Shown here in pieces: positions 4,197 through 50,229 of a stretch of 64,000 nucleotides of DNA. The translations under genes and the position numbers were made by a program. The notes under the pieces are model-generated. The model was not told the DNA's origin and ran no database searches. It worked only from the letters and a program-made list of their open reading frames with translations. Position 1 is the first letter of the stretch, and each line of letters begins with the position of its first letter. Origin of the DNA: Pseudofrankia coriaricola (GTDB lineage Bacteria > Actinomycetota > Actinomycetes > Frankiales > Frankiaceae); NCBI RefSeq assembly GCF_001854805.1, contig NZ_MBLO01000069.1, positions 1-64,000 on the forward strand, written 5' to 3'.

Positions 4197-4997
4197 ATGC
4201 TGTTACTGGTAGTGGAGGACGACGACCGGGTGGCGGGCGCGCTGGCCGGCAGTCTTCGCCGGCACGGGTTCGACGTGGTCCGCGCCCGAACGGGCACCCT
4301 CGCGCTGGACATGCTGAACAGCGCCCAGCCGGATCTCGTGCTGCTCGACCTGGGTCTTCCGGACCGCGACGGCTTCGACATCTGCACCCGCATCCGACTG
4401 ATATCCACGGTACCGATCATCATGGTGACCGCCCGCGCGGAGCAGGCCGACCGGCTGCGCGGCCTCTACACCGGGGCCGACGACTACGTCGTCAAGCCTT
4501 TCGACGTCCTCGAACTCATCGCGCGCATTCACGTGGTGACCAGACGTTCCCACCAGCGCGGCGACGCGTCCGGTTCCCGCCCCGAGCCGGGCCCAGGCGG
4601 GCCAAGGCCCGCCTGGGCCCGCGCCTGGCCACCGCCGGCTCCGGTGCCCACCAGGCCCGGCCAGCACGGGCCCGGCACGCTCGGGAGCGACGGCGACCAG
4701 GTGCTGTCCGTCGGGAGGATCTCCATAGACCTGCGGGCGCGGGAGGTCACCGTCGCCGGGCGGGAGACCGCGCTCACCCGCAAGGAGTTCAACCTGCTCG
4801 CCCAGCTCGCGGGCGCCCCGGGCGTGGTGTTCCGGCGCGAGCAGATATTCGCCGAGGTGTGGGGATACAGCTCGGAAGGCGCCTCGCACACATTGGAGGT
4901 CCATATTGCGTCACTGCGCGCAAAGCTAGGACTGCCCGGGGTGATCGAGACCGTCCGCGGTATCGGCTACCGGCTGAGCACAAAGGCCGTCGGCTAA
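4197..4997 (+). CDS. OmpR/PhoB-family response regulator
   Basis: This 266-aa two-component regulator has a receiver domain at residues 1-115, with acidic pocket E7/D8/D9, phospho-acceptor D51 in LLDLGLPDRDG, T78 and K100. A winged-helix DNA-binding domain spans about 175-266, with the family sequences LTRKEFNLLAQLAG and ETVRGIGYRLS. Start: ATG 4197 follows GGAG at 4187-4190 and begins directly with MLLLVVEDD; longer in-frame starts add only low-complexity residues. The linker (about residues 118-170) is unusually long and Pro/Gly-rich and contains a 16-bp DNA palindrome. No cognate kinase adjoins it. The following TAXI protein gene may be co-transcribed. Confidence 0.9.
   Translation: MLLLVVEDDDRVAGALAGSLRRHGFDVVRARTGTLALDMLNSAQPDLVLLDLGLPDRDGFDICTRIRLISTVPIIMVTARAEQADRLRGLYTGADDYVVKPFDVLELIARIHVVTRRSHQRGDASGSRPEPGPGGPRPAWARAWPPPAPVPTRPGQHGPGTLGSDGDQVLSVGRISIDLRAREVTVAGRETALTRKEFNLLAQLAGAPGVVFRREQIFAEVWGYSSEGASHTLEVHIASLRAKLGLPGVIETVRGIGYRLSTKAVG
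4588..4621. repeat. Perfect 16-bp inverted repeat inside the response-regulator gene
   Basis: CGGGCCCAGGCGGGCC at 4588-4603 is followed by AA and then its exact reverse complement at 4606-4621. It encodes part of the Pro/Gly-rich linker between the receiver and DNA-binding domains. A hairpin of this strength in mRNA is unusual within a coding region. Confidence 0.85.
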
Positions 4998-5120
4998 ACG
5001 CACAGGCCGTCGTTTACATATCGGTAATCTTTCCGTCCGGCCTTCGGCCCGGCCTCGGCCCATGCCCGCGCACAACCGCGCCGCCTGACGTTCCCGGACG
5101 TCGGCGTGCGAGGATAAAGC

Positions 5121-6146
5121 ATGAGAGTCACCGTGGGCCGGGCGCGCCCGTCCGGCCTGCCGCCGTGGCGTCGACTGGTCGTGCTGGCCGTCGTTCCGGC
5201 GGTTGTTCTGGTGACGGCCGGGGTGCTCGCCTGGATTCGGTTCGACGGCGGCGGCCCGCAATATCGACGGGGACCCGTCACGGTCTTCACCGGAGGCACC
5301 GGGGGCATCTACTACCGGTACGGCACGGCGCTGTCGGCCTCGATCAACGGCTCGCTGCCGGGGGTAAGGGCGACGACCATGATCACGGGCGCCGCGGTGG
5401 ACAACCTGCGGAGGGTAGCCGCCGAGCCGAACACCTTCGGCTTCTCGACGATGGACGCGGCGACGGCCGCGGTGCGCGGACAGGACCCCTTCAAGAAGGC
5501 CGCCCTGCCCGTCCGGGCTGTCGCGCGGATCTACGACGAGTACATCCACCTCATCGTGCCGCGCGACTCCCCCGTCCGGACCCTCGCGGACCTGCGCGGC
5601 CGGCGGGTCTCGACCGGCGCCCCCGGCTCGGGCACCGACCTGGTCGCCACCCGGCTGTTCACCGTCGACCCGGCGATCGACCTGGCCGACGTGACCCAGC
5701 GGAGGCTCGGTGTCGACGAGTCGGCGAAGGCGCTGGCCGACGGCACCATCGACGCGTTCTTCTGGCAGGGCGGGCTGCCCACCATCACGGTCGCGGACCT
5801 GGCCAGCCGGTTCCCCGTCTGGTTCGTCCCTCTCGACGGGCTGGTGGGCAGGCTGGACGACGTCCAGGAGTGGGGCGCCGAGTACCGGCGCGGCGTCATC
5901 CCCGACGGCGCCTACGCCGGCGTCGGCGCGACCCCGACCGTGGCGATGGCCGACCTGCTCGTCACCAGCGTCGACACCGACCCGGGACTCGTCCGCGAGG
6001 TGACCCGGATTCTCTTCGACGCGCGGGAGACGATCGCCCGGGTGGTGCCGGTCGCGTACTCGCTGGACCCGCGCAGCGCCGTCGCGACCGGGCCGGTGCC
6101 GCTGCACGAGGGGGCGGCCAGGTACTACCGGGCAACCAAGGTCTAG
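5121..6146 (+). CDS. TAXI-family solute-binding protein with N-terminal membrane anchor
   Basis: This 341-aa protein belongs to the TAXI branch of TRAP-transporter receptors. The family hallmark after the membrane segment is VFTGGTGGIYYRYG (about residues 54-67), followed by ATTMITGAAVDNLRRV and the segment GAPGSGTD. A basic N-terminus and one hydrophobic helix (about residues 16-36) suggest membrane anchoring with the domain outside. No TRAP membrane subunits are nearby. Actinobacterial TAXI proteins are often linked to two-component genes and may act as sensors, so the response regulator 123 bases upstream is a plausible partner; that is inference. Confidence 0.83.
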   Translation: MRVTVGRARPSGLPPWRRLVVLAVVPAVVLVTAGVLAWIRFDGGGPQYRRGPVTVFTGGTGGIYYRYGTALSASINGSLPGVRATTMITGAAVDNLRRVAAEPNTFGFSTMDAATAAVRGQDPFKKAALPVRAVARIYDEYIHLIVPRDSPVRTLADLRGRRVSTGAPGSGTDLVATRLFTVDPAIDLADVTQRRLGVDESAKALADGTIDAFFWQGGLPTITVADLASRFPVWFVPLDGLVGRLDDVQEWGAEYRRGVIPDGAYAGVGATPTVAMADLLVTSVDTDPGLVREVTRILFDARETIARVVPVAYSLDPRSAVATGPVPLHEGAARYYRATKV

Positions 6147-37917: not shown

Positions 37918-40900
37918 TCAGCGCAGGACGGTGTGCGGGATGGTGATGGTACGTAGCGCGCCCATCGCGTCGACGACGTGGCCGCGGCCGGGGCGGATGC
38001 CGGTGCGCAGCAGGCTTTGCGGGATCCGGGTGCCGATCAGGTCGCCGTCGACGGAGCTCTGCGGCGAGAGCAGCACACCCTGACGGGAGCGCTTCGCCTC
38101 GGCGAGCCAGCCGCCGAGCGCCTGGCCGAGCGTCTCACCGCTGCCGGCATAGGCCAGCCCAACACGGCGGTCGCGACCGGTCGCGACGACGGCGCGCAGC
38201 GGCGGCTCCAGCGGGTTGTTGTACCCGAGCAGGTCGACGTCGTCGACGAGCACGGCAACGGGCCGTCCGCCCCCGGTCCCGCCGGTCGTCGCCGCTCCGA
38301 TCTCCGCGAGCGCCGCGGTGAGGTCGTCACCGCTGAAGACCGGCCCGGTGAGCAACCGGACGTCGGCGTGCGCCGCGAGCCGGCGCAGCGGCGACTCGCG
38401 CGGCGTCACGACCACCAGCGCGGTGCCGCCGGCCAGCAGCGACACACCCAGTGTCGCCAGCGTCGTGCTGCGGCCCGAGCCGGGCGGCCCGACGACCAGG
38501 AAGGTGTGCGACCGGCCGGCGAAGTCGACGACCACCGGCCCGGCGTCGTCGCCGCCCAGGCCGAGCAGCGCGCGCAGCGGCCGCCGGTCAACCTCGGCGA
38601 CCTGCCCGAACGCCTCGGCGAACGTCACCGTCTCGGGCAGCGCCGCGACCGGGAACGGCACCCGACCGGACGGCGCTCCGCCAGCCCTGGCCACCCCGGC
38701 CTGGACCCCGCCAGTCCTGGCCGTGCCCGCCTCGGCGGCGCGCGCGGCGACCCCGATCCGGCGCAGCGCGTCGGCCTGCGCCTGCCCGGTCGGGTCGGGG
38801 GCCAGCAGGGCCACCTGCACCTCGGCCTGGTCCTCGGCACGCCAGCCGCGGCCCGGCGGGACGACCGCCGGCACCCGGGCCGACTGGAGGTGGATCGTCG
38901 AGTAGTCGGAGCGCTCGGTCATCCGCAGGACCAGCTTGCTGTCGACGAGTGGGGCCGCCCGGCCGGTGAGCAGCGCGCGCTCGGAGGTCGCGACGACGTG
39001 GACGCCGACGCCCGTGCCCTCCCGCAGCAGTGCCAGCAGCAGCTCGTAGAGCCGGCCGCCGTCGTGCTCCCCGAGCGTCGCGGTCAGCGAGTCCCAGCCG
39101 TCGATGAACAGCACCAGGTGCGCCGGCCGCTCGGCCGCCGGCAGCACGCCGCGCAGCTCCGCGAGCCCGGCGCAGGAGTGCTTGCCCAGCAGGGCCTGGC
39201 GGCGGGACACCTCGGCGGCGAGCCGGTCGAGCAGCCGGGCGAGCCGTTCGAGGTCGCTCGCGGGCACGACGGCGCCGGTGTGTGGCAGCTCCGCGAGCAC
39301 CGCGAGCGCCCCGCCCCCGGCGTCGACGCCGTAGAAGTGGACGTCCGCGCTGGAGACCGCCCCGGCGAGCGCGCCCGCAAGGGTGCGCAGCACCTGCGAG
39401 CGGCCGGCGCGCGGCGTGCCGATGACGCAGAGATGCCCGAACGTGGCGAGGTCGCACATCACCGGGGCCTGCCGCTGCCGCGCGGGGACGTCCGCGAGCG
39501 CGTAGGGCACGGCGGGCAGCGCGCCGGTGCGCGCGGTCGTCGCGCGGTCCGGCCCGGTGTAGCCGAGGGCGCGCACCCGCTCGGCCAGCTCGTCGACGAG
39601 CAGCCTGGTGCCCAGCGGCGGCAGCCACGGGCTCGGCCGGGCGGCGGCGCCCTCCTCGTCGCCGGCGAGCACCGCCGCGGCGCCGATGGCGTCGACCAGG
39701 ACGTCCAGGTCGGTCGCGGCCGCGTCCTCGTCCAAGGCGGCGACCGGCTCGGCGGCCGTGAACGGCAGCGGCCGGCCCAGGCCGATCCAGCGCAGCGGCA
39801 CGGCCTCGACCGGCCAGCTCCCGGGCACCAGGGCGGAGCCACCAGCGGCGCCCTCAGCCCCGGCAGTCGCGCCAGCGCCGCCCGTCCCAGCGGCCGCGGA
39901 CACGCCGGCCGCCCCAGCGGCTCCAGCGGCCCCAACCGTGCCGACCGCCCTGGGAGCCCCAGCAGTCCCAGCCAGGGCCGGCGGCCCTGCCGGGGCGGGC
40001 AACGAGGCCGTCGTGTCCACCTGCTCGCCGCCGGTCGACGCGGGCCGTGGCCAGGCAGCGGTACCGGCCTTCGCCGGCTGAGGCTGAGCACCGATGTCGG
40101 TACCGGCCGGGACGCGGGCGGGCATCGGCCCGTCGTAGCGACCGCCCGCGTAGGCCGTCTGGAACGGCACCGACGACCGCGCCGCGAGCCGGACGAGCGC
40201 CCGGCCGGGGATCGCGGCCGGCACGAACGCGGCGTCCTGGGTGTCGATGACGTCGGAGCTCTCGTGGGTGTCGGTGACCCGCAGCGCGATCCGCAGGTTC
40301 GTGTTCGCCCGGATGTCGGCGGTGACCGCGCCCCCCGGGCGCTGGGTGGCGAGCACCAGGTGCACGCCCAGCGACCGGCCCCGCTGGGCGAGGCTGACGA
40401 GGCCGGGAACGAACTCGCGCACCTCGCTGACGAGCGTCGCGAACTCGTCGATGACGATGACGAGGCGGCCGAGTGACGGCAACGAGGAGTCCTTGGCGCG
40501 CAGCATCCGGTAGTGCGCGAGATCCTTGGCCGCGGTCGCGGCCAGCACCTCCTCGCGGCGGCGCAGCTCGGCCCCGAGGGACTCCAGGGCGCGGACGGCG
40601 AGCGCCGCGTCCAGGTCGGTGACCATCCCGAGGGTGTGCGGCAACCGGACACAGCTGTGGAACGCGCTGCCGCCCTTGTAGTCGACCAGGACGAAGCCCA
40701 GCTCGTCCGGGTGGTTGCGGGCCGCGAGCGACGCGACGAGGGTCTGCAGCAGCTCGGACTTGCCGGCGCCGGTGGTCCCGGCGACCAGGGCGTGCGGACC
40801 GTCGCGGACGAGGTCGAGCACGAAGGGCCCGTCGAACCCGGTTCCCAGCGGGAACGCGGTCGTCGCGGGGCGGGCGCCCCAGGCGCCGGCGATCCGCCTG

Positions 40901-43236
40901 GCCATCTCGTCCGGCCCCGCGTCGGCGAGGCCGAGCAGGTCCAGCAGCCGGACCTCGGGGGGCAGGCCGCCGGAGTCGTCCGGGGTGACGTCGCGCAGCG
41001 GGCACATCGCCCGGCCCACCTGGTCGCACCAGGCCGGCGTGACCAGGTCCTGGCGCACCCCGCGAAGCTCCGGGGCATCCGACTGGCGGACGGTCAGCCC
41101 GTCGCCGTCCACCCGCACGACCGCGGCGCACTCCTCCGGCAGCAGCCGCTCGTCCGCGTCCAGGCACAGGGCGAACACTCGGACCGCCGGGCCCTCCTTG
41201 AGCACCTGCACCACGCCGGGAACGTCGCGCAGCCGCCGGGCGCCGTCGAGGACGACGACCACGTCCGGCTCCCGGAACAGCACCTGGCCCATCGTCGACC
41301 CGCGTGCCTTCGTCCGCGCCTTGACGAGCGCGACGAGCTCGGAGACGCGGTGCGCCACCGTCTCCGGGTCGGTGCCGACGAACGCGTACGGCGCCCCGGC
41401 CGCCGAGCCGTCGGCGGGGTTCGGCCGGGCGTGCGGCAGCCAGCGCACCCAGTCCCAGCGGGCCTCCCCCAGCACGTCGGCGAGAATCTCGACGCGTACG
41501 TCCCGGGGGCTGTGCAGGACGCAGGCCTGCGCGACCAGCCAGCGGGCCAGCCCGCCCACTGTCCCGGCGGGGCCGGCGACGCCGATGACCCCCCGGCCCG
41601 CCAGGTCAACGAGCACGGGGACGTCGGGGACGGTCCAGCGCACCTCGCGGGAGTAGCCGTCGACCGTCGGGTCATCGACCTCGATCAGGGACGGCTGGTC
41701 GGCGGTCCCGACCCGGAGCACCAGATGGTCCGGGTCGGCGCGGCGGCGTTCCCACAGCCGCCCGCCCGGCCCGGTCGCCGTGAGCCACGCGGTCGCCGGG
41801 TCGGGCGCCGCCAGGCCCCTGGCCTGCTGCTCGGCGGCGACGGCCGCGGCGAGTTCGCGGTCCACCTCGGCCCGTCGGGCGCGGTAGCGGGCGGCCGCGA
41901 CGCGGAACTGGCGGCGCCCGCCGCGCCGGTCGGTGTACCAGTTCGCCACGCCCATGAGAGGCGCCATCGCCATGATGATCAGGAAGTACGTCGACCCGAA
42001 GAGCCAGACGAACGCCACGCCCATCACCAGTGGCGACAGCATCATCACCATCGGGATCGGCCGGCGCGTCGGCGTCGACGGCGGCGACGGGTAGCGCTGC
42101 CGGGAGTAGAGCAGCGGCGGCACGATCCGCGGCGGCCGGTTGAAGTCACGCCCCACGACGTCGAGCGAGGGGGTCACGGCGGCGTCCGGCTCGAACGGGT
42201 CGACGAGCCGCAGCAGGGTGTCACCCACGGCGAGGTCCATGCCGACCGGCCACGGCGACGAGGACGACGGGCGACCGGCGCCGCCCCGACGGGCGGTCGC
42301 TCGGCCGGCGGTCTTGACGCCCGGACTGTGCTCGCTCGCGGCGGTGGTGACGCCGTCGGGCGCGGCCGCTGAGCCGGCCCGGCCGGCCGAGCGCCCGGGC
42401 TTGCGGCGGGGGTCGCCGTGGTGGTTGACGTTCGTCGCGAGGTGGTGCTCGTCGGTCCGGCGGACCGGTGGCGCGAACGGCCGGGCGAGCCGCGTGGCGT
42501 GCCGGCGAGAGTCACCGGCCGAAGCCGGGGTTGGGGCCGGGGCCGGTGGGCCGTCGGGAGCCAGCCAGCTCACCCAGGTGTCGCCGGTGTGGCCGACGTG
42601 CAGCGTCGGCCCCCGCTCGGGCAGCCCGTCGAGCCGGATCGCGCAGTCGGCCGCCGAGCCGATGCCATGCACGCCCGGACCCACGGCCCACACCTGGCCG
42701 GCGTACGGACCGCCGACCGCGCGCACCTCGTACCAGTGCGCGTCGGAGGCCGCGAGCGGCTCGCCGCCCGCAGCGGGGCGCGCGGCGTCCCGCCACGGCG
42801 GCGCGGGCCCGACGGGCCGGGCCGGGCCGCCGACGCCGAGCCGGGCGCCACCGGCCAGACCGGACTCGCGCAGGGTCGCCCGCGGATCGAGTGGCGCACC
42901 GTCAAGGTAGAGGTCAAGCCCGCGAGGGCCCGCCGTGGCGCCCGGGACGGCCTGGTGGTCTGGGGCGGCCTGACTCGGAGTGGCGCGGTCCTGAGCTGTC
43001 GGCTCCGGACGGGCCGTGTCCGAAGTGGCCTCATCCAGAGACCAGCGATCCGGAAAGGCATCGTCGGCTGGCGGGGGCGGCGGGCCCGCGGCGAGATCGT
43101 CGCCGAGGTCCCGGGCGAGCCCGGCGGCGACCGTCGCGATGGTGCTCGACGGCCGGGCCGCCAGCGCCACGTCGAGCTCGGCGCCGGACGGGAGGGTGAC
43201 GGTCAGCGGCACCGAGCCCACAGACGACGTCGTCAT
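37918..43236 (-). CDS. eccC: T7SS motor ATPase, EccC/EssC type, with FHA domain
   Basis: This 1772-aa membrane ATPase drives type VII export. It has an N-terminal ubiquitin-like/FHA-type region (FHA signature about residues 168-225), two membrane helices (about 395-431) and three FtsK/SpoIIIE-like ATPase domains. D1 has intact Walker A GTTGAGKS (820-827) and Walker B VIVIDEFA (926-933). In D2 (GTPRAGRS, 1273-1280) and D3 (GPPGSGRS, 1583-1590) the P-loop Lys is replaced by Arg. One active and two degenerate sites, and N-terminal FHA, recall EssC of Firmicutes more than mycobacterial EccCa/CaB. An Ala/Gly-rich linker sits at about 1076-1136. GGGAGG precedes the ATG, and the upstream gene overlaps by 4 bases (ATGA). 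Confidence 0.9.
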   Translation of the reverse strand: MTTSSVGSVPLTVTLPSGAELDVALAARPSSTIATVAAGLARDLGDDLAAGPPPPPADDAFPDRWSLDEATSDTARPEPTAQDRATPSQAAPDHQAVPGATAGPRGLDLYLDGAPLDPRATLRESGLAGGARLGVGGPARPVGPAPPWRDAARPAAGGEPLAASDAHWYEVRAVGGPYAGQVWAVGPGVHGIGSAADCAIRLDGLPERGPTLHVGHTGDTWVSWLAPDGPPAPAPTPASAGDSRRHATRLARPFAPPVRRTDEHHLATNVNHHGDPRRKPGRSAGRAGSAAAPDGVTTAASEHSPGVKTAGRATARRGGAGRPSSSSPWPVGMDLAVGDTLLRLVDPFEPDAAVTPSLDVVGRDFNRPPRIVPPLLYSRQRYPSPPSTPTRRPIPMVMMLSPLVMGVAFVWLFGSTYFLIIMAMAPLMGVANWYTDRRGGRRQFRVAAARYRARRAEVDRELAAAVAAEQQARGLAAPDPATAWLTATGPGGRLWERRRADPDHLVLRVGTADQPSLIEVDDPTVDGYSREVRWTVPDVPVLVDLAGRGVIGVAGPAGTVGGLARWLVAQACVLHSPRDVRVEILADVLGEARWDWVRWLPHARPNPADGSAAGAPYAFVGTDPETVAHRVSELVALVKARTKARGSTMGQVLFREPDVVVVLDGARRLRDVPGVVQVLKEGPAVRVFALCLDADERLLPEECAAVVRVDGDGLTVRQSDAPELRGVRQDLVTPAWCDQVGRAMCPLRDVTPDDSGGLPPEVRLLDLLGLADAGPDEMARRIAGAWGARPATTAFPLGTGFDGPFVLDLVRDGPHALVAGTTGAGKSELLQTLVASLAARNHPDELGFVLVDYKGGSAFHSCVRLPHTLGMVTDLDAALAVRALESLGAELRRREEVLAATAAKDLAHYRMLRAKDSSLPSLGRLVIVIDEFATLVSEVREFVPGLVSLAQRGRSLGVHLVLATQRPGGAVTADIRANTNLRIALRVTDTHESSDVIDTQDAAFVPAAIPGRALVRLAARSSVPFQTAYAGGRYDGPMPARVPAGTDIGAQPQPAKAGTAAWPRPASTGGEQVDTTASLPAPAGPPALAGTAGAPRAVGTVGAAGAAGAAGVSAAAGTGGAGATAGAEGAAGGSALVPGSWPVEAVPLRWIGLGRPLPFTAAEPVAALDEDAAATDLDVLVDAIGAAAVLAGDEEGAAARPSPWLPPLGTRLLVDELAERVRALGYTGPDRATTARTGALPAVPYALADVPARQRQAPVMCDLATFGHLCVIGTPRAGRSQVLRTLAGALAGAVSSADVHFYGVDAGGGALAVLAELPHTGAVVPASDLERLARLLDRLAAEVSRRQALLGKHSCAGLAELRGVLPAAERPAHLVLFIDGWDSLTATLGEHDGGRLYELLLALLREGTGVGVHVVATSERALLTGRAAPLVDSKLVLRMTERSDYSTIHLQSARVPAVVPPGRGWRAEDQAEVQVALLAPDPTGQAQADALRRIGVAARAAEAGTARTGGVQAGVARAGGAPSGRVPFPVAALPETVTFAEAFGQVAEVDRRPLRALLGLGGDDAGPVVVDFAGRSHTFLVVGPPGSGRSTTLATLGVSLLAGGTALVVVTPRESPLRRLAAHADVRLLTGPVFSGDDLTAALAEIGAATTGGTGGGRPVAVLVDDVDLLGYNNPLEPPLRAVVATGRDRRVGLAYAGSGETLGQALGGWLAEAKRSRQGVLLSPQSSVDGDLIGTRIPQSLLRTGIRPGRGHVVDAMGALRTITIPHTVLR

Positions 43237-45038
43237 CGCGCCGCCTCCCTCACCGGCGGCGTCGCCGACGCCGCTGTCGCCGTCGTGATGGCCGGGTCGG
43301 CGGCGTCCGGTGTCGCGTCGGGTTCGGCGAAGTCGGACGCGTCGACCGGGACGGCCACCCCACGGTCTCGTCCGGGCCTGGCCGTACCGGAGCCCGGCGG
43401 CGCGTAGTGGCGCGGATCCGGCGTCGCCGCCGGCACGGCCGGAGCCGCCGGCACGGCCGGAGCAGCGACGGGCGGCGGTGACGTGGACGGGGACGGCGCG
43501 CGGAACGGTCCCGGCGGGACCGGCGGCGCGGCCGGAGCCGCTGGCACGGCCGGGGCAGCGGCGGCCGGCCGTGACATGGGTGGCGGCGCGTGGAAGGGGC
43601 CCGGCGGCGCGGAAGGCGCCGGTACGGGAGCCGGCCACGCCCCCGGAGCGCGCCCCGCCGCGGGAGCCTGCGGTGGCCCGGGGAACGGAGGCATCGGCAA
43701 CGGCGGCATGGGCACCGGGCTTCCCGTCGGCGCCGGCCAGGAGTGTGGAACCGAAGGCGCGGGAACCGGCCCGGCCCAGGCGGGCGGCGACGGCGCGTGC
43801 AGGGGCGCGGCGGGGGCCTGCTCCCCCGCGGGCGGCGTCCAGGAGCCCGGAGGGACCTGGCCAAGGGGCGCGGGGCCTGGTTCCGTCGTGGTCTTCCGCG
43901 CCGGCGCGGCCGTGGTCATCGCTCGCCGGCGCACGGCCGCGGGGCGTAGCACCCGCGCGACCGCGCGCTCGAGCGGCGCCGAGTCCACGGTGATGCCGAA
44001 CTCCGGTGCGGTCAGCCCCCCCACGTCGTCAAGCACCAGCCGGAAGCCGGCGCCGGACCAGGCGCCGGCGACCAGCACCCGCACCGCCGGGTCCCGCCGG
44101 GCCGCGGCGGCGAGCAGGCCGGCCTCGGCGTCGTCGGGCCGGGCGCAGACCAGCACGATGAGCGAGGAACGGCTGGGAGTGTCCGTCTCCGGCCGCGGGC
44201 CGGCACCGGTCGATGTGCTCGGGAGCTCGCCGAGCGCCACGGCGAGCGTCGGACCGCCGTAGCCGGGCAGCACGTCATCGGTGACGACCAGCCGCGCCGG
44301 GCGGCCGGTGGCCGGCAGGCCGGCGGCGAGCTGCGCGGCGATCATCGCGGCGAGGCGCCGGCCGGCCTCGGGCGGACCCTCGATGGCACCGACAGCGGGA
44401 AGCGCGGCGAGGTCGAGCAGGACGAGCGCCCGCTGCCTGCCCCGCCCGGACACGCCGACGGCGACCAGGACGCCCGGCGCGGGCTCGTCCGGCACGCCGC
44501 GGCCAGTAGCCAGCAGCTCTGCGCGGCCGGCCGTCCATCGACCGGGGCCGGCCGGGCGCCAGGGCGAGCCCAGGCCACGCCTGGCATCCCGCGAGGACGG
44601 GTCATCGTGGCCTCGCGCCGCTGCGCCCGGACCAGGCCGGGCGGGCCGCAGCGTCGCGCCGACAGTCACCTGCGCCGGACCGGCGGCCAGCAGATACGCC
44701 CGGCCAGGCGTCCGCGCGCCGGCCACCGCGGCGAAAGAACGATCCCGCAGCGCAGGCACCTCGGCGTCGAGCAGCGCGGCCGCGGCGAACCGTACCCGCA
44801 GCCAGTAGCGTGCCGGCCGCCAGGCCGCGGCAGCGAGGCCGACGACGGCGCCGCGCAGCGAGCGGGCGAGCCAGGCGACGGCCCGCTTCCAGCCGACCGC
44901 CCTGGAGAATGCCTGGGCTCCGACCAGCGCCAGCACGACCGCCACCGCGACGGTCAGGCCGACAAGGATCGCGTGCCGGTGGGTGGTGAACAGCCCGGCC
45001 GGGCCGAACAGCGCCGCGCCGGCGGTCACGGTCGTCAC
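43233..45038 (-). CDS. T7SS-associated membrane protein, possibly EccE-like
   Basis: The product has one or two N-terminal membrane helices (HAILVGLTVAVAVVLALVGA and a second weak one), a globular cytoplasmic domain (about residues 100-400) and a long Pro/Ala-rich tail. Its stop overlaps the ATPase start as ATGA, so the two are translationally coupled. This layout suits a T7SS core component such as EccE, but no diagnostic motif was found. The start is uncertain: GTG 45038 is proposed (601 aa) because the membrane helix follows soon after; the frame stays open to 45653, but that extension is Arg-rich and unconvincing. Confidence 0.65.
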   Translation of the reverse strand: MTTVTAGAALFGPAGLFTTHRHAILVGLTVAVAVVLALVGAQAFSRAVGWKRAVAWLARSLRGAVVGLAAAAWRPARYWLRVRFAAAALLDAEVPALRDRSFAAVAGARTPGRAYLLAAGPAQVTVGATLRPARPGPGAAARGHDDPSSRDARRGLGSPWRPAGPGRWTAGRAELLATGRGVPDEPAPGVLVAVGVSGRGRQRALVLLDLAALPAVGAIEGPPEAGRRLAAMIAAQLAAGLPATGRPARLVVTDDVLPGYGGPTLAVALGELPSTSTGAGPRPETDTPSRSSLIVLVCARPDDAEAGLLAAAARRDPAVRVLVAGAWSGAGFRLVLDDVGGLTAPEFGITVDSAPLERAVARVLRPAAVRRRAMTTAAPARKTTTEPGPAPLGQVPPGSWTPPAGEQAPAAPLHAPSPPAWAGPVPAPSVPHSWPAPTGSPVPMPPLPMPPFPGPPQAPAAGRAPGAWPAPVPAPSAPPGPFHAPPPMSRPAAAAPAVPAAPAAPPVPPGPFRAPSPSTSPPPVAAPAVPAAPAVPAATPDPRHYAPPGSGTARPGRDRGVAVPVDASDFAEPDATPDAADPAITTATAASATPPVREAAR

Positions 45039-47586: not shown

Positions 47587-47611
47587 GAGCCATCGTCAAT
47601 ACCTGTGGATC
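47587..47611 (+). repeat. Left inverted repeat of the IS256-type element
   Basis: This 25-bp repeat ends in ACCTGTGGATC toward the element interior. It matches the reverse complement of 49564-49588 at 21 of 25 positions. Confidence 0.7.
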
Positions 47612-47633
47612 TGGCGTGCTCGTCGTTTGCCAA

Positions 47634-48215
47634 TCAGTTACTTCGGAGCAGCCGTGCGGCGGTCTGGGCGGGAGTCTCGTTGCGGGTGTAGATCGTCCGT
47701 GTCGCGACCAGCTCGGTGCCGCGGTCGTCGAGCCAGTGGGCGAGGAAGTCGTGCCCGTCGACGATCCAGGATCGGCCTTTGCTCGCTGTGCAGCGTCGCC
47801 GTAGCACGGTCAGTGAGCCCTTGCGCTCAGGGGAGGGAAGGAGACGGACCACATCTCGGCAACGGCTCAGTGCGGTGCGGACCGTGACCAGGTGCCGGTG
47901 ATCGGTGTAGCTAGTGTGGCCTGCGCCCAGTGCAATGACGGCGTCGGGATGATCTGCGGCAGCACGGGCCACGGCATGTGCTCGGGCCGGTTCCCATTCC
48001 ACTTCGGCCGCAAGGCGTCCGACCGCGGCGATGCGCTCGCGGAGTTTGGCGATGCTCCATCCCACCTCCGCGTAGTACCCGTCCGCGGTGGCGTCCAGAT
48101 CGACGAACGGTTTGTGCGTCCTCGCTGCAAGCTCTCGGCCGAGGGTGGTTTTCCCAGCGCCGGCCGGACCGACCAGAACCATCCAGGGTGCCTCAGTGGC
48201 CGCCGGTCGGCTCAC
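47634..48215 (-). CDS. Shikimate-kinase-like P-loop kinase, passenger of IS256 element
   Basis: This 193-aa protein has Walker A GPAGAGKTT (16-24), an acidic DLDATAD segment at the position of the shikimate-kinase DxD motif, and an IALGAGH segment like the family GGG motif. It is probably a small-molecule or nucleoside kinase rather than the aromatic-pathway enzyme; substrate unknown. The GTG at 48215 overlaps the transposase TGA (GTGA), so translation is coupled. It lies inside the inverted repeats of the element, making it a passenger gene rather than a host neighbour. Confidence 0.75.
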   Translation of the reverse strand: MSRPAATEAPWMVLVGPAGAGKTTLGRELAARTHKPFVDLDATADGYYAEVGWSIAKLRERIAAVGRLAAEVEWEPARAHAVARAAADHPDAVIALGAGHTSYTDHRHLVTVRTALSRCRDVVRLLPSPERKGSLTVLRRRCTASKGRSWIVDGHDFLAHWLDDRGTELVATRTIYTRNETPAQTAARLLRSN

Positions 48216-49465
48216 GCGGCGATCACCTCATCGCGTTCTACGAGGCGACCCCGTTCGAAGCGCGCTCCGGCGCGGACGAGGGCGACGAGGTGGGGCGCGT
48301 TCACGGCCCGCCACCGCTGCTGGGCGGACTCCACCAGCTTGAAGACCATGGCCAGGGCGGCGGTGCGGGAGCCGGCCCCGCGGGTGACCTTGGTCCGCAG
48401 CCTCACGGTGGAGAAGGTGGACTCTATGGGGTTCGTGGTGCGCAGGTGGATCCAGTGCTCGGCGGGGAAGTCGTAGAACGCCAGCAGCTGGTCCTGGTCG
48501 GCGGTGATCTTCTTGACGGCTTTGGGGAACTTCACGCCGTAGAGCTGGGCGAACGTCTTGATCGCCGCCTCGGAGCGGTCGCGGTCCTCGGCGTTGTAGA
48601 TGTCCTGGATCGCTTTCTTCGCTCCGGGCTGCGCGGACTTCGGCAGGGAGTCGAGGACGTTGGCCGTTTTGTGAACCCAGCACCTCTGCTCGCGGGTGGT
48701 GAGGAACACGTCGGCCAGAGCCTTCCAGAAACCGAGCGCGCCGTCACCAACCGCGAGGACGGGGGCACGCATGCCCCGGCGGGCGCAGTCGCGCATCATG
48801 TCGGCCCAGGATTCGGCGGATTCGCGGTAGCCGTCGGCGAGGGCGACCAGTTCTTTGGAGCCGTCGGTGCGGACCCCGACGAGGACCAGAACGCAGCCTT
48901 TGGCCTCCTCCAGACGGATGTTGAGGTGGATGCCGTCGGCCCACACGTACACGTAGTCGGCCTGGGAAAGGTCACGGTTCATGAACGCGACGTGATCGGC
49001 CTGCCACTGCTGGGTGAGCCGGGTGACCGTGGCCGGTGAGAGCCCGGCCGCCGAGCCGAGGAACTGCTCCAGCGCCGGGACGAAGTCCCCGGAGGACAGC
49101 CCGTGCAGGTAGAGCAGCGGCAGCACCTCGCTGACCTTCGGGGACTTGCGGCACCACGGCGGCAGGATCGCCGAGGAGAATCGCTTGCGCTCGCCCGTGG
49201 TCTCGTCGACCCGCTTGTCGTTCACCCGCGGCGCCTTCACCTCGACCGCCCCGGCCGCGGTAGTGACCTTCCGGGGCTGGTGGTAGCCGTTGCGCACCAC
49301 CAGCCGCCGACCTTTGCCGTCTTGCTGGTCGGCCAACTCGGCTATGTAGGCGTTGACTTCGGCTTCCAGGGCCGCCGCGAGCATCCGCCGGGCGCCCTCC
49401 CGAACGATCTCGTCTATCAGGGAGCTGTTCGGCATGGTGCCGTCGTCGTTGACTACGCTGAGCAC
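48212..49465 (-). CDS. IS256-family (mutator-type) transposase
   Basis: This full-length 417-aa DDE transposase has its acidic catalytic residues in WADGIHLNIR, VGDGALGFWKAL and TTNPIESTFSTVR, and the conserved N-terminal NSSLIDEIVREGARRML. The GTG 49465 has GGGAAGG at 49473-49479. No frameshift or stop interrupts it, so the element could be active. Its stop overlaps the start of the kinase-like gene by four bases. Confidence 0.93.
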   Translation of the reverse strand: MLSVVNDDGTMPNSSLIDEIVREGARRMLAAALEAEVNAYIAELADQQDGKGRRLVVRNGYHQPRKVTTAAGAVEVKAPRVNDKRVDETTGERKRFSSAILPPWCRKSPKVSEVLPLLYLHGLSSGDFVPALEQFLGSAAGLSPATVTRLTQQWQADHVAFMNRDLSQADYVYVWADGIHLNIRLEEAKGCVLVLVGVRTDGSKELVALADGYRESAESWADMMRDCARRGMRAPVLAVGDGALGFWKALADVFLTTREQRCWVHKTANVLDSLPKSAQPGAKKAIQDIYNAEDRDRSEAAIKTFAQLYGVKFPKAVKKITADQDQLLAFYDFPAEHWIHLRTTNPIESTFSTVRLRTKVTRGAGSRTAALAMVFKLVESAQQRWRAVNAPHLVALVRAGARFERGRLVERDEVIAA

Positions 49466-49563
49466 GGACGTGCCTTCCCGACCGGTGCTGCGAACACCGG
49501 CCTACTCGATGACCATCAGTCGATCACTCGGGAAGGTACGCCCTTCGCACGCTTCCCGAGCTC

Positions 49564-49588
49564 GATCCACAGGTCTTGAGCATGTCTC
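49564..49588 (-). repeat. Right inverted repeat of the IS256-type element
   Basis: GATCCACAGGT at 49564-49574 begins the 25-bp inner-to-outer repeat. It lies 98 bases upstream of the transposase start. Confidence 0.7.
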
Positions 49589-49649: not shown

Positions 49650-49734
49650 TGCGTAGTAGGCACTACTCCTTATGTCGTGCGCCTTGTTCGGTAGGGACCG
49701 TGACTGTCTGAGGTGGTACCGGCAGGATGGGCGG

Positions 49735-50229
49735 ATGACGCGGCGGTGGGTGCAGTCGGCACATCATCGACCTGGGCGGCGGCGTTCCGGTCACCGCCCA
49801 CGAGCGACAGTGCGGGGCCTGGTAGCGGGAGCGCTCATCCTCGGAGTGGTTGTGTTTGTCGGGTTCCTGATCGCGGCCCAGGTAAGGATGGATCGAGCTG
49901 GCTGCGGCGCGGTCGATCCGACGGACCCAGGCAACTACAGCGCGGTGTTTCTCGCCAACGACACCCCGCGGTTGGTCGTCGTCGACGACTGCCAGGGCGG
50001 CTATTGCAGATCCGATCAAGGGTCGATGCCGCTGGCGCCAGGCGAGCGAGTCGGGGTCGACGCCGCATGCGCGGCCAGCGGCGACGCCATGACGTCGTGG
50101 CGGGTAGCAAGCGCTGACGGGACCGTTCTGGGCTACGTCGCGGTCGACACCCCCAGGAAGCGCGACGGCCTTGTCTACCCCATCTCCCGCGTGAGCCACA
50201 ATCGGTTCACCGCAACCCCTTCGCTCTGA
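49735..50229 (+). CDS. Single-pass membrane protein of unknown function
   Basis: The 164-aa product has an Arg/His-rich N-terminus, one membrane helix (GLVAGALILGVVVFVGFLIAAQV, about residues 29-51) and an extracytoplasmic domain with four Cys (CGAV, CQGGYC, CAASG) that could form disulphides. No family was recognised. ATG 49735 is preferred over GTG 49672 because the extra N-terminal residues look non-coding. Confidence 0.6.
   Translation: MTRRWVQSAHHRPGRRRSGHRPRATVRGLVAGALILGVVVFVGFLIAAQVRMDRAGCGAVDPTDPGNYSAVFLANDTPRLVVVDDCQGGYCRSDQGSMPLAPGERVGVDAACAASGDAMTSWRVASADGTVLGYVAVDTPRKRDGLVYPISRVSHNRFTATPSL

Follow-up and report, generated by a model that had tools for sequence, protein, structure and literature searches.

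A putative passenger-carrying IS256-family element with a kinase gene in Pseudofrankia coriaricola, and its actinobacterial relatives with exchangeable cargo

A 2002-bp unit in the genome of Pseudofrankia coriaricola is, with a probability that we put at roughly 0.87, a passenger-carrying insertion sequence (transporter IS, tIS), which belongs to an actinobacterial clade of the IS256 family and holds its cargo in one slot. The unit occupies positions 47587-49588 of the window, by which we mean the whole stretch of DNA analysed (assembly GCF_001854805.1, contig NZ_MBLO01000069.1, positions 1-64,000, forward strand), and consists of one transposase gene and one cargo interval. Insertion sequences are usually defined as coding for their own movement alone. 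The tIS kind is itself known; what sets the present case apart is a clade that specialises in interchangeable, mostly single-gene cargo. Beyond this, we lean towards the view that the IS256 clade of Streptomyces, met here in Frankia, may act as a minimal system for gene capture and exchange, which would take host genes repeatedly into one slot, fit many of them flush, swap them and spread them, much as integrons do, by means of one transposase and two 25-bp ends. The features of the unit are as follows:

49564..49588, minus strand: IRL, the transposase-proximal terminal inverted repeat (GAGACATGCTCAAGACCTGTGGATC on the minus strand; a consensus for the clade was drawn from 68 elements)
49466..49563, minus strand: leader, from IRL to the transposase start
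48212..49465, minus strand: IS256-family transposase, 417 aa, open throughout (NF033543, PF00872)
48212..48215, minus strand: GTGA overlap of transposase stop and kinase start, a geometry of translational coupling
47634..48215, minus strand: passenger P-loop kinase of the shikimate-kinase-like superfamily, 193 aa (PF01202)
47612..47633, minus strand: 22-bp spacer, from the kinase stop to the right end
47587..47611, minus strand: IRR, the right terminal inverted repeat; the match with the second Frankia copy extends to its outer base and no further

The arms of the inverted repeat (47587-47611 and 49564-49588) match at 21 of 25 positions and enclose both genes, as the original prediction had stated, and the overlap that it had described between the kinase GTG (48215-48213) and the transposase TGA (48214-48212) was likewise confirmed, as the GTGA at 48212-48215. 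When random pairs of 150-bp stretches were drawn from the window at the same spacing, a match of at least 21/25 arose in 1 of 300 draws. These ends recur in related elements and are conserved in 68 elements; the outer edge of the right end lies 47 bp beyond the kinase stop. The transposase scores 286.2 bits with NF033543 (cut-off 150) and 211.3 bits with PF00872 (cut-off 21), and D177, D241 and E348, positions computed from the motif, are its putative DDE residues. Composite transposons also move accessory genes by means of a transposase; here, only one IS is present, whose cargo lies inside its ends next to IRR, and this candidate was rejected because the genome contains one full-length copy instead of two that flank the cargo. 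Three other transposase matches in the genome are partial or distant and lie on other contigs. Short C-terminal fragments of related IS256 transposases are found in the same genome at G000:C254 22267-22446 and G000:C279 11706-11786, and they look like the remains of older copies that have since decayed.

A second copy, in Frankia nepalensis (L001), shares 96.7% DNA identity over 1137 bp and has a different flank. It matches the window exactly to base 47587, the outer base of IRR, and diverges beyond. As the match reaches precisely this edge while the flank differs, the kinase lies within the mobile unit, which had been predicted and which also agrees with the cargo that relatives carry between the same ends, with exact target duplications. 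No target duplication was found at the window copy, and in L001 the beginning of the transposase is missing, so that this copy is truncated on the transposase side. Mobility of the window's exact unit is for these reasons something we infer, and it is two Frankia sites, one of them truncated, that bear on movement of the kinase unit as a whole. With the flanking gene at 49672-50229 as a probe, no empty site could be defined for the window copy in three other genomes of the genus, since the matches there are only 32-36% identical.

A search with the transposase detected members of the clade in 66 of 392 Streptomyces genomes, at no fewer than 84 places (E <= 1e-180, best 4 candidates per genome), and across the phylum in 5 of 396 genomes, the window's own included (best 4 candidates per genome). 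We extracted 77 loci, namely 74 of the 84 places and three from two other genera, which together with eight plasmid loci and the window gave 86 rows; exclusion of the outside rows L132-L134 and of the duplicate L072 leaves the 82 elements compared. The sample was picked by transposase similarity alone, blind to cargo, and is not fully independent, as genomes G727 and G772 give four copies each. The right end was located in 78 of the 82 elements (not in L065, L083, L093 and L125), and in 10 of these 78 the left end was not found. In six of the 78, the bare elements, only 34-38 bp separate the transposase stop from the right end, whereas the other 72 carry 335-2576 bp in this place (median 547). 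Where both ends were located (70 rows), the distance from the start of IRL to the transposase is 113-147 bp throughout, and hence cargo lies on the right side and none on the left in these rows. The transposases of elements whose slot holds unrelated genes or none are 73-91% identical. The right end (window 47587-47611 and 68 related elements) includes a conserved, outward-reading TTGAC, which is absent from the left end and is found in bare and cargo-bearing elements alike. We take it to be the core of a -35-like hexamer, from which a junction promoter might arise in a circular form.

Exact target duplications of 8-9 bp flank 23 of the 68 elements for which both ends and flanks are available, one of which (L132) is an outgroup element, and 28 of the 68 when one mismatch is allowed; 45 of the 68 are without an exact duplication. 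At shifted positions, the control gave 0 of 1496. Among the cargo-bearing elements, 21 of 62 have an exact duplication. Moreover, the four copies in G727 and the four in G772 carry the same cargo at different sites within each genome, several with duplications. The duplications and the multi-copy genomes provide in silico support for the view that in these relatives the whole unit moves together with its passenger.

To describe the cargo, 50 ORFs from the cargo intervals were scanned with Pfam. The DNA is GC-rich and many of its competing ORFs are spurious, so the cargo ORFs were picked by a rule that took account of length, position and family match; cargo labels were assigned by us from ORF clusters. 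Above the curated cut-offs we found VOC/glyoxalase proteins, at least six clusters of GNAT acetyltransferases, HAD_SAK_2 and HAD hydrolases, RibD-type reductases (one with an adjoining AHSA1 gene), an alpha/beta hydrolase, an SDR, DUF899, a mycothiol-dependent isomerase-like protein, a methyltransferase, an AAA_33 kinase and a MerR regulator beside a GNAT gene, as well as a PLP-enzyme, which is nearest to threonine dehydratases, below their cut-offs. About 12 cargo types gave no Pfam match, and a few matched below the cut-off only (DUF2773, bPH_6, MTHFR and a second methyltransferase). One of 20 cargo proteins compared with NCBIfam exceeded a curated cut-off, through the mycothiol-dependent enzyme domain of L129. 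Most of the sampled copies carry one or two small cargo genes.

The fit of the cargo to the slot is often tight. In 43 of the 64 cargo rows (the duplicate L072 counted), the transposase stop holds a possible start codon (NTGA), and in 29 of the 64 the cargo is flush, that is, the ORF that starts at this overlap fills 0.90-0.99 of the interval to the right end. Fill values between 0.58 and 0.90 do not occur among ORFs with an NTGA start, and 24 flush cargos are left when repeat copies within a genome are counted once. In other elements, the cargo has its own upstream region and lies in either orientation. Inspection by eye revealed no sequence beside the cargo that is common to unrelated cargos beyond the transposase stop and the right end. 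In L106, near-identical copies of CCTCAACTGA flank the cargo, one after the transposase stop and one before the right end (CCTCACTGA on the right), possibly as the trace of a capture event.

On a transposase tree of 74 rows, with cargo labels on 71 tips in 37 states (bare included), 48 cargo changes were counted as compared to 55-62 in 200 shuffles. The labels are thus non-random on the tree, and part of the cargo pattern is inheritance; some inheritance and much replacement both seem to be present. Where elements with distant backbones share a cargo, it is often more similar than the transposase: 89.6% versus 77.0% identity in L081/L124, 87.7% versus 76.2% in L067/L128 and 91.9% versus 83.5% in L019/L078, while L105 and L106 have 1166 bp of cargo in common at 93.2%, in opposite orientation, and transposases of 83.6% identity. 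The reverse is seen in L111/L127 (cargo 75%, transposase 88%), and because the cargo of some pairs diverges more than the transposase, such identity comparisons are not a clean clock. On these comparisons, cargo appears to have been swapped between transposase lineages.

The direction of change can be read to some extent from relatives outside Streptomyces. Among the six plasmid loci from other actinobacterial genera (L147-L152), the right end lies 33-34 bp after the transposase stop in L147, L149 and L150; in L148 and L152 the same end sequence was recognised at the bare place by reading, and L151 has an early stop, with the end present where the full-length gene would finish. L132-L134 are also bare. 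Bare relatives occur in Rhodococcus, Mycolicibacterium and Gordonia. Given such bare relatives, the comparison with these actinobacterial elements suggests that in the Streptomyces clade the carriage of cargo is a derived state. In the tree, the window transposase falls among the Streptomyces sequences, in a set of 9 rows with an SH-aLRT of 99, and the Frankia element for this reason probably came from Streptomyces.

The kinase itself matches PF01202 with 29.9 bits (cut-off 22.1), covering model positions 2-81 of 159, and has a GPAGAGKT sequence and a VDLDA sequence, which we take to be Walker A and a DxD motif. It resembles AroK/AroL in its P-loop, its VDLDA (DxD), its size and its PF01202 score above the cut-off, but it remains far below the cut-offs for shikimate kinases: with the best NCBIfam shikimate-kinase model (AroL) it reaches 31.2 bits against a cut-off of 161, short of an equivalog-level match. 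The host, in addition, possesses a separate SKI-family gene with 145.8 bits. An ordinary shikimate kinase was rejected on these scores, and the earlier label 'shikimate-kinase-like' is appropriate at the level of the superfamily but not at that of the family. A structure model from 4 sequences was weak (mean pLDDT 61), and a PDB fold search with it returned nothing at E <= 0.001, with weak matches to NMP, shikimate and gluconate kinases. Our guess is that the protein is probably a small-molecule kinase.

Kinase-bearing loci are rare in the samples, since a search of 396 actinobacterial genomes (E <= 1e-20, best 8 candidates per genome) returned the window's own genome only and 3 of 392 Streptomyces genomes matched; within the genus of the window, the kinase is present in 2 of 8 genomes, its own included. 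Seven Streptomyces kinase loci were compared (L002, L003, L004, L012, L025, L026 and L027), and four of them bear remnants of the same element. In L012, the last transposase codons overlap the start of the kinase, which reads in two frames, and a 23/25 right end follows ~48 bp past the gene. A match to transposase residues 173-205 lies just upstream of the kinase in L025, residues 1-45 and a 19/25 left end are retained in L026, and in L004 a left end (18/25) is joined to the 3' end of the kinase. These four loci suggest that the pairing of kinase and element probably predates the arrival in Frankia. The stretch of L004 from 4850 to 5150 looks like a short MITE-like derivative, from which nearly all of the transposase has been deleted. 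At L002, L003 and L027, neither ends nor a transposase were found within the scanned stretch, and the kinase thus appears to exist also alone; a distant relative (L013, 30% identity) on a Synechocystis plasmid is likewise without IS ends. With the original prediction, two outcomes had been named as speaking against it, namely element copies whose ends exclude the kinase and a kinase found stably without the transposase at a conserved locus. Both occur in some form, in related elements and at L002, L003 and L027; they rule out an obligate pairing but leave the passenger reading intact.

What, then, is the kinase doing in the element? It had been suggested to play a role in transposition or to benefit the host, and for the former one could imagine a working part of the transposition machinery (a regulator, an ATP-driven helper or a target selector) in an operon with the transposase, in keeping with the stop-start overlap of the two genes and with the age of a pairing that left remnants at four Streptomyces loci. 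Such a role remains unsupported and we give it hardly any credence, because in related elements the same slot is filled by GNAT, VOC, HAD, RibD, SDR and other unrelated genes or by nothing, many of these elements having exact target duplications. It is equally hard to see the kinase as an old chromosomal gene that happens to have a transposase on one side and an inverted repeat, accidental or decayed, on the other. The lack of a target duplication at the window copy and the IS-free homologues at three loci would fit, but the right end agrees with the clade consensus, the second Frankia copy stops at the same base in another flank, and L012 holds its kinase between a C-terminal relic of the transposase and a right end; we therefore regard this explanation as very improbable, and a chance inverted repeat as such is ruled out by the second copy and the clade consensus. 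That cargo might stabilise the element as an addiction or defence module, instead of conferring a catalytic benefit, could be argued from the small size of the cargo genes and from the types without a family match above the cut-off. This, too, is quite unlikely: PADLOC gave weak, partial matches for 2 of the 10 proteins tried, the window kinase among them, and most of the cargos that can be named are enzymes, encoded mostly by single genes rather than pairs. For the kinase, a benefit to the host is our better guess.

Under the preferred passenger reading, the transposase would act on the outer ends and move the unit in its entirety, by the circle-type mechanism that has been described for IS256. 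Cargo would enter through recombination events in which DNA downstream of the transposase stop, as far as the right end, is exchanged or added. Cargo that is translated from the transposase message via stop-start re-initiation would be favoured and trimmed to a flush fit, and cargo would be retained for its help to the host, not as an aid to transposition. Replacement is seen once in detail, in L105, which has an 8-bp target duplication. Here, the middle of a HAD cargo has given way to a segment of ~1.31 kb, and of the HAD cargo the first ~40 bp and the last ~50 bp are kept. The segment matches L155, L157 and L160 at 93.5-95.6% over the same length, and these three loci showed no transposase or ends within 1.5 kb; shorter parts match other loci, one of which, L161, lies in a one-contig genome (95.4% over 1148 bp). 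Among ten loci that match the L105 cargo, only L154 (96.6%) has a transposase nearby. We infer that the direction was from genome to element. In L154, a copy of the L105/L106 cargo gene adjoins an IS256 transposase that matches in two pieces. In L106, the sequence that follows the transposase stop in its bare relative L092 is kept to the edge of the right end and is then followed by cargo.

Alternatively, still within the passenger reading, cargo might for the most part enter when a second right end farther out, provided by a solo end or a neighbouring copy, comes into use, with the original end decaying later. Indeed, end-like sequence (at least 15/25) is present at the bare position in 5 of 64 cargo rows as compared to 10 of 1847 in the background (Fisher p 8e-5), and L077 and L070 retain much of the end core, which suggests this route in a few cases. 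Yet in L104, one of the five, the sequence falls inside the cargo gene, in L105 the replacement took place inside an older cargo while end-proximal DNA was kept, and 59 of the 64 cargo rows have no such match at the bare position, which is why we do not take a distal end as the sole route. As the main route it is a tentative proposal, less likely than not, and both routes may operate.

Passenger-carrying IS are mentioned as exceptions in earlier work (PMC3942029, PMC3129680, PMC9330008, PMC7986276), and the name transporter IS is used there for IS copies with passenger genes (PMC3129680, PMC9330008, PMC7986276); several families have tIS members, with a single one listed for the IS6 family (PMC7986276). 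The present unit shares with them a single IS with one transposase, two ends and an enclosed gene unrelated to transposition, but differs in that cargo of many kinds is found across an entire clade, in a single fixed slot and in many cases flush with the stop of the transposase. With the IS256 family, it shares the transposase family, ends of ~25 bp and, in relatives, target duplications of 8-9 bp. In the 2014 survey (PMC3942029), this family is p-MULT 1, transposes through a circular intermediate, and is represented by 109 elements said to have IS organisation. The claim that most IS256 elements carry only a transposase thus stands for that survey, but not for this clade, in which cargo is the rule and 72 of 78 elements carry extra DNA. 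Section 11 of the survey lists 12 elements of the ISAzba1 group (p-MULT 4) with between one and three additional ORFs, as well as four ISKra4 elements with different genes of unknown function (PMC3942029). These are Mutator-type relatives with passenger ORFs but belong to another transposase family, and a fixed slot, coupling or exchange between lineages is not described for them in that section. In the open-access literature, to which our search was directed, no passenger genes were described in IS256 elements of Streptomyces or Frankia, and such elements may possibly have been described elsewhere.

Integron gene cassettes are single small accessory genes that are swapped in one slot of a vector. 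The elements described here resemble them in the functional mix and in one-slot swapping; unlike in integrons, no integrase-like ORF was seen in the ORF list between the ends of the window element, and it is usually one gene that is moved, by a transposase with its own ends. The GNAT, VOC, RibD and kinase families include resistance and detoxification enzymes, and several cargos belong to such families, their functions being predicted from the family. These tiny transposons appear to take up single genes, exchange them and pass them on. In the annotated records examined, the cargo is listed as a separate gene beside an IS256 transposase, so that annotation probably overlooks part of the mobile gene pool. 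Since the clade includes bare and cargo-bearing elements as well as decayed ones and possible donors, the step from IS to gene carrier can be studied directly in it. Elsewhere in the window, a very long ORF on the minus strand (37918-43638) contains several ATPase-like Walker motifs and resembles an EccC/FtsK-type protein of type VII secretion.
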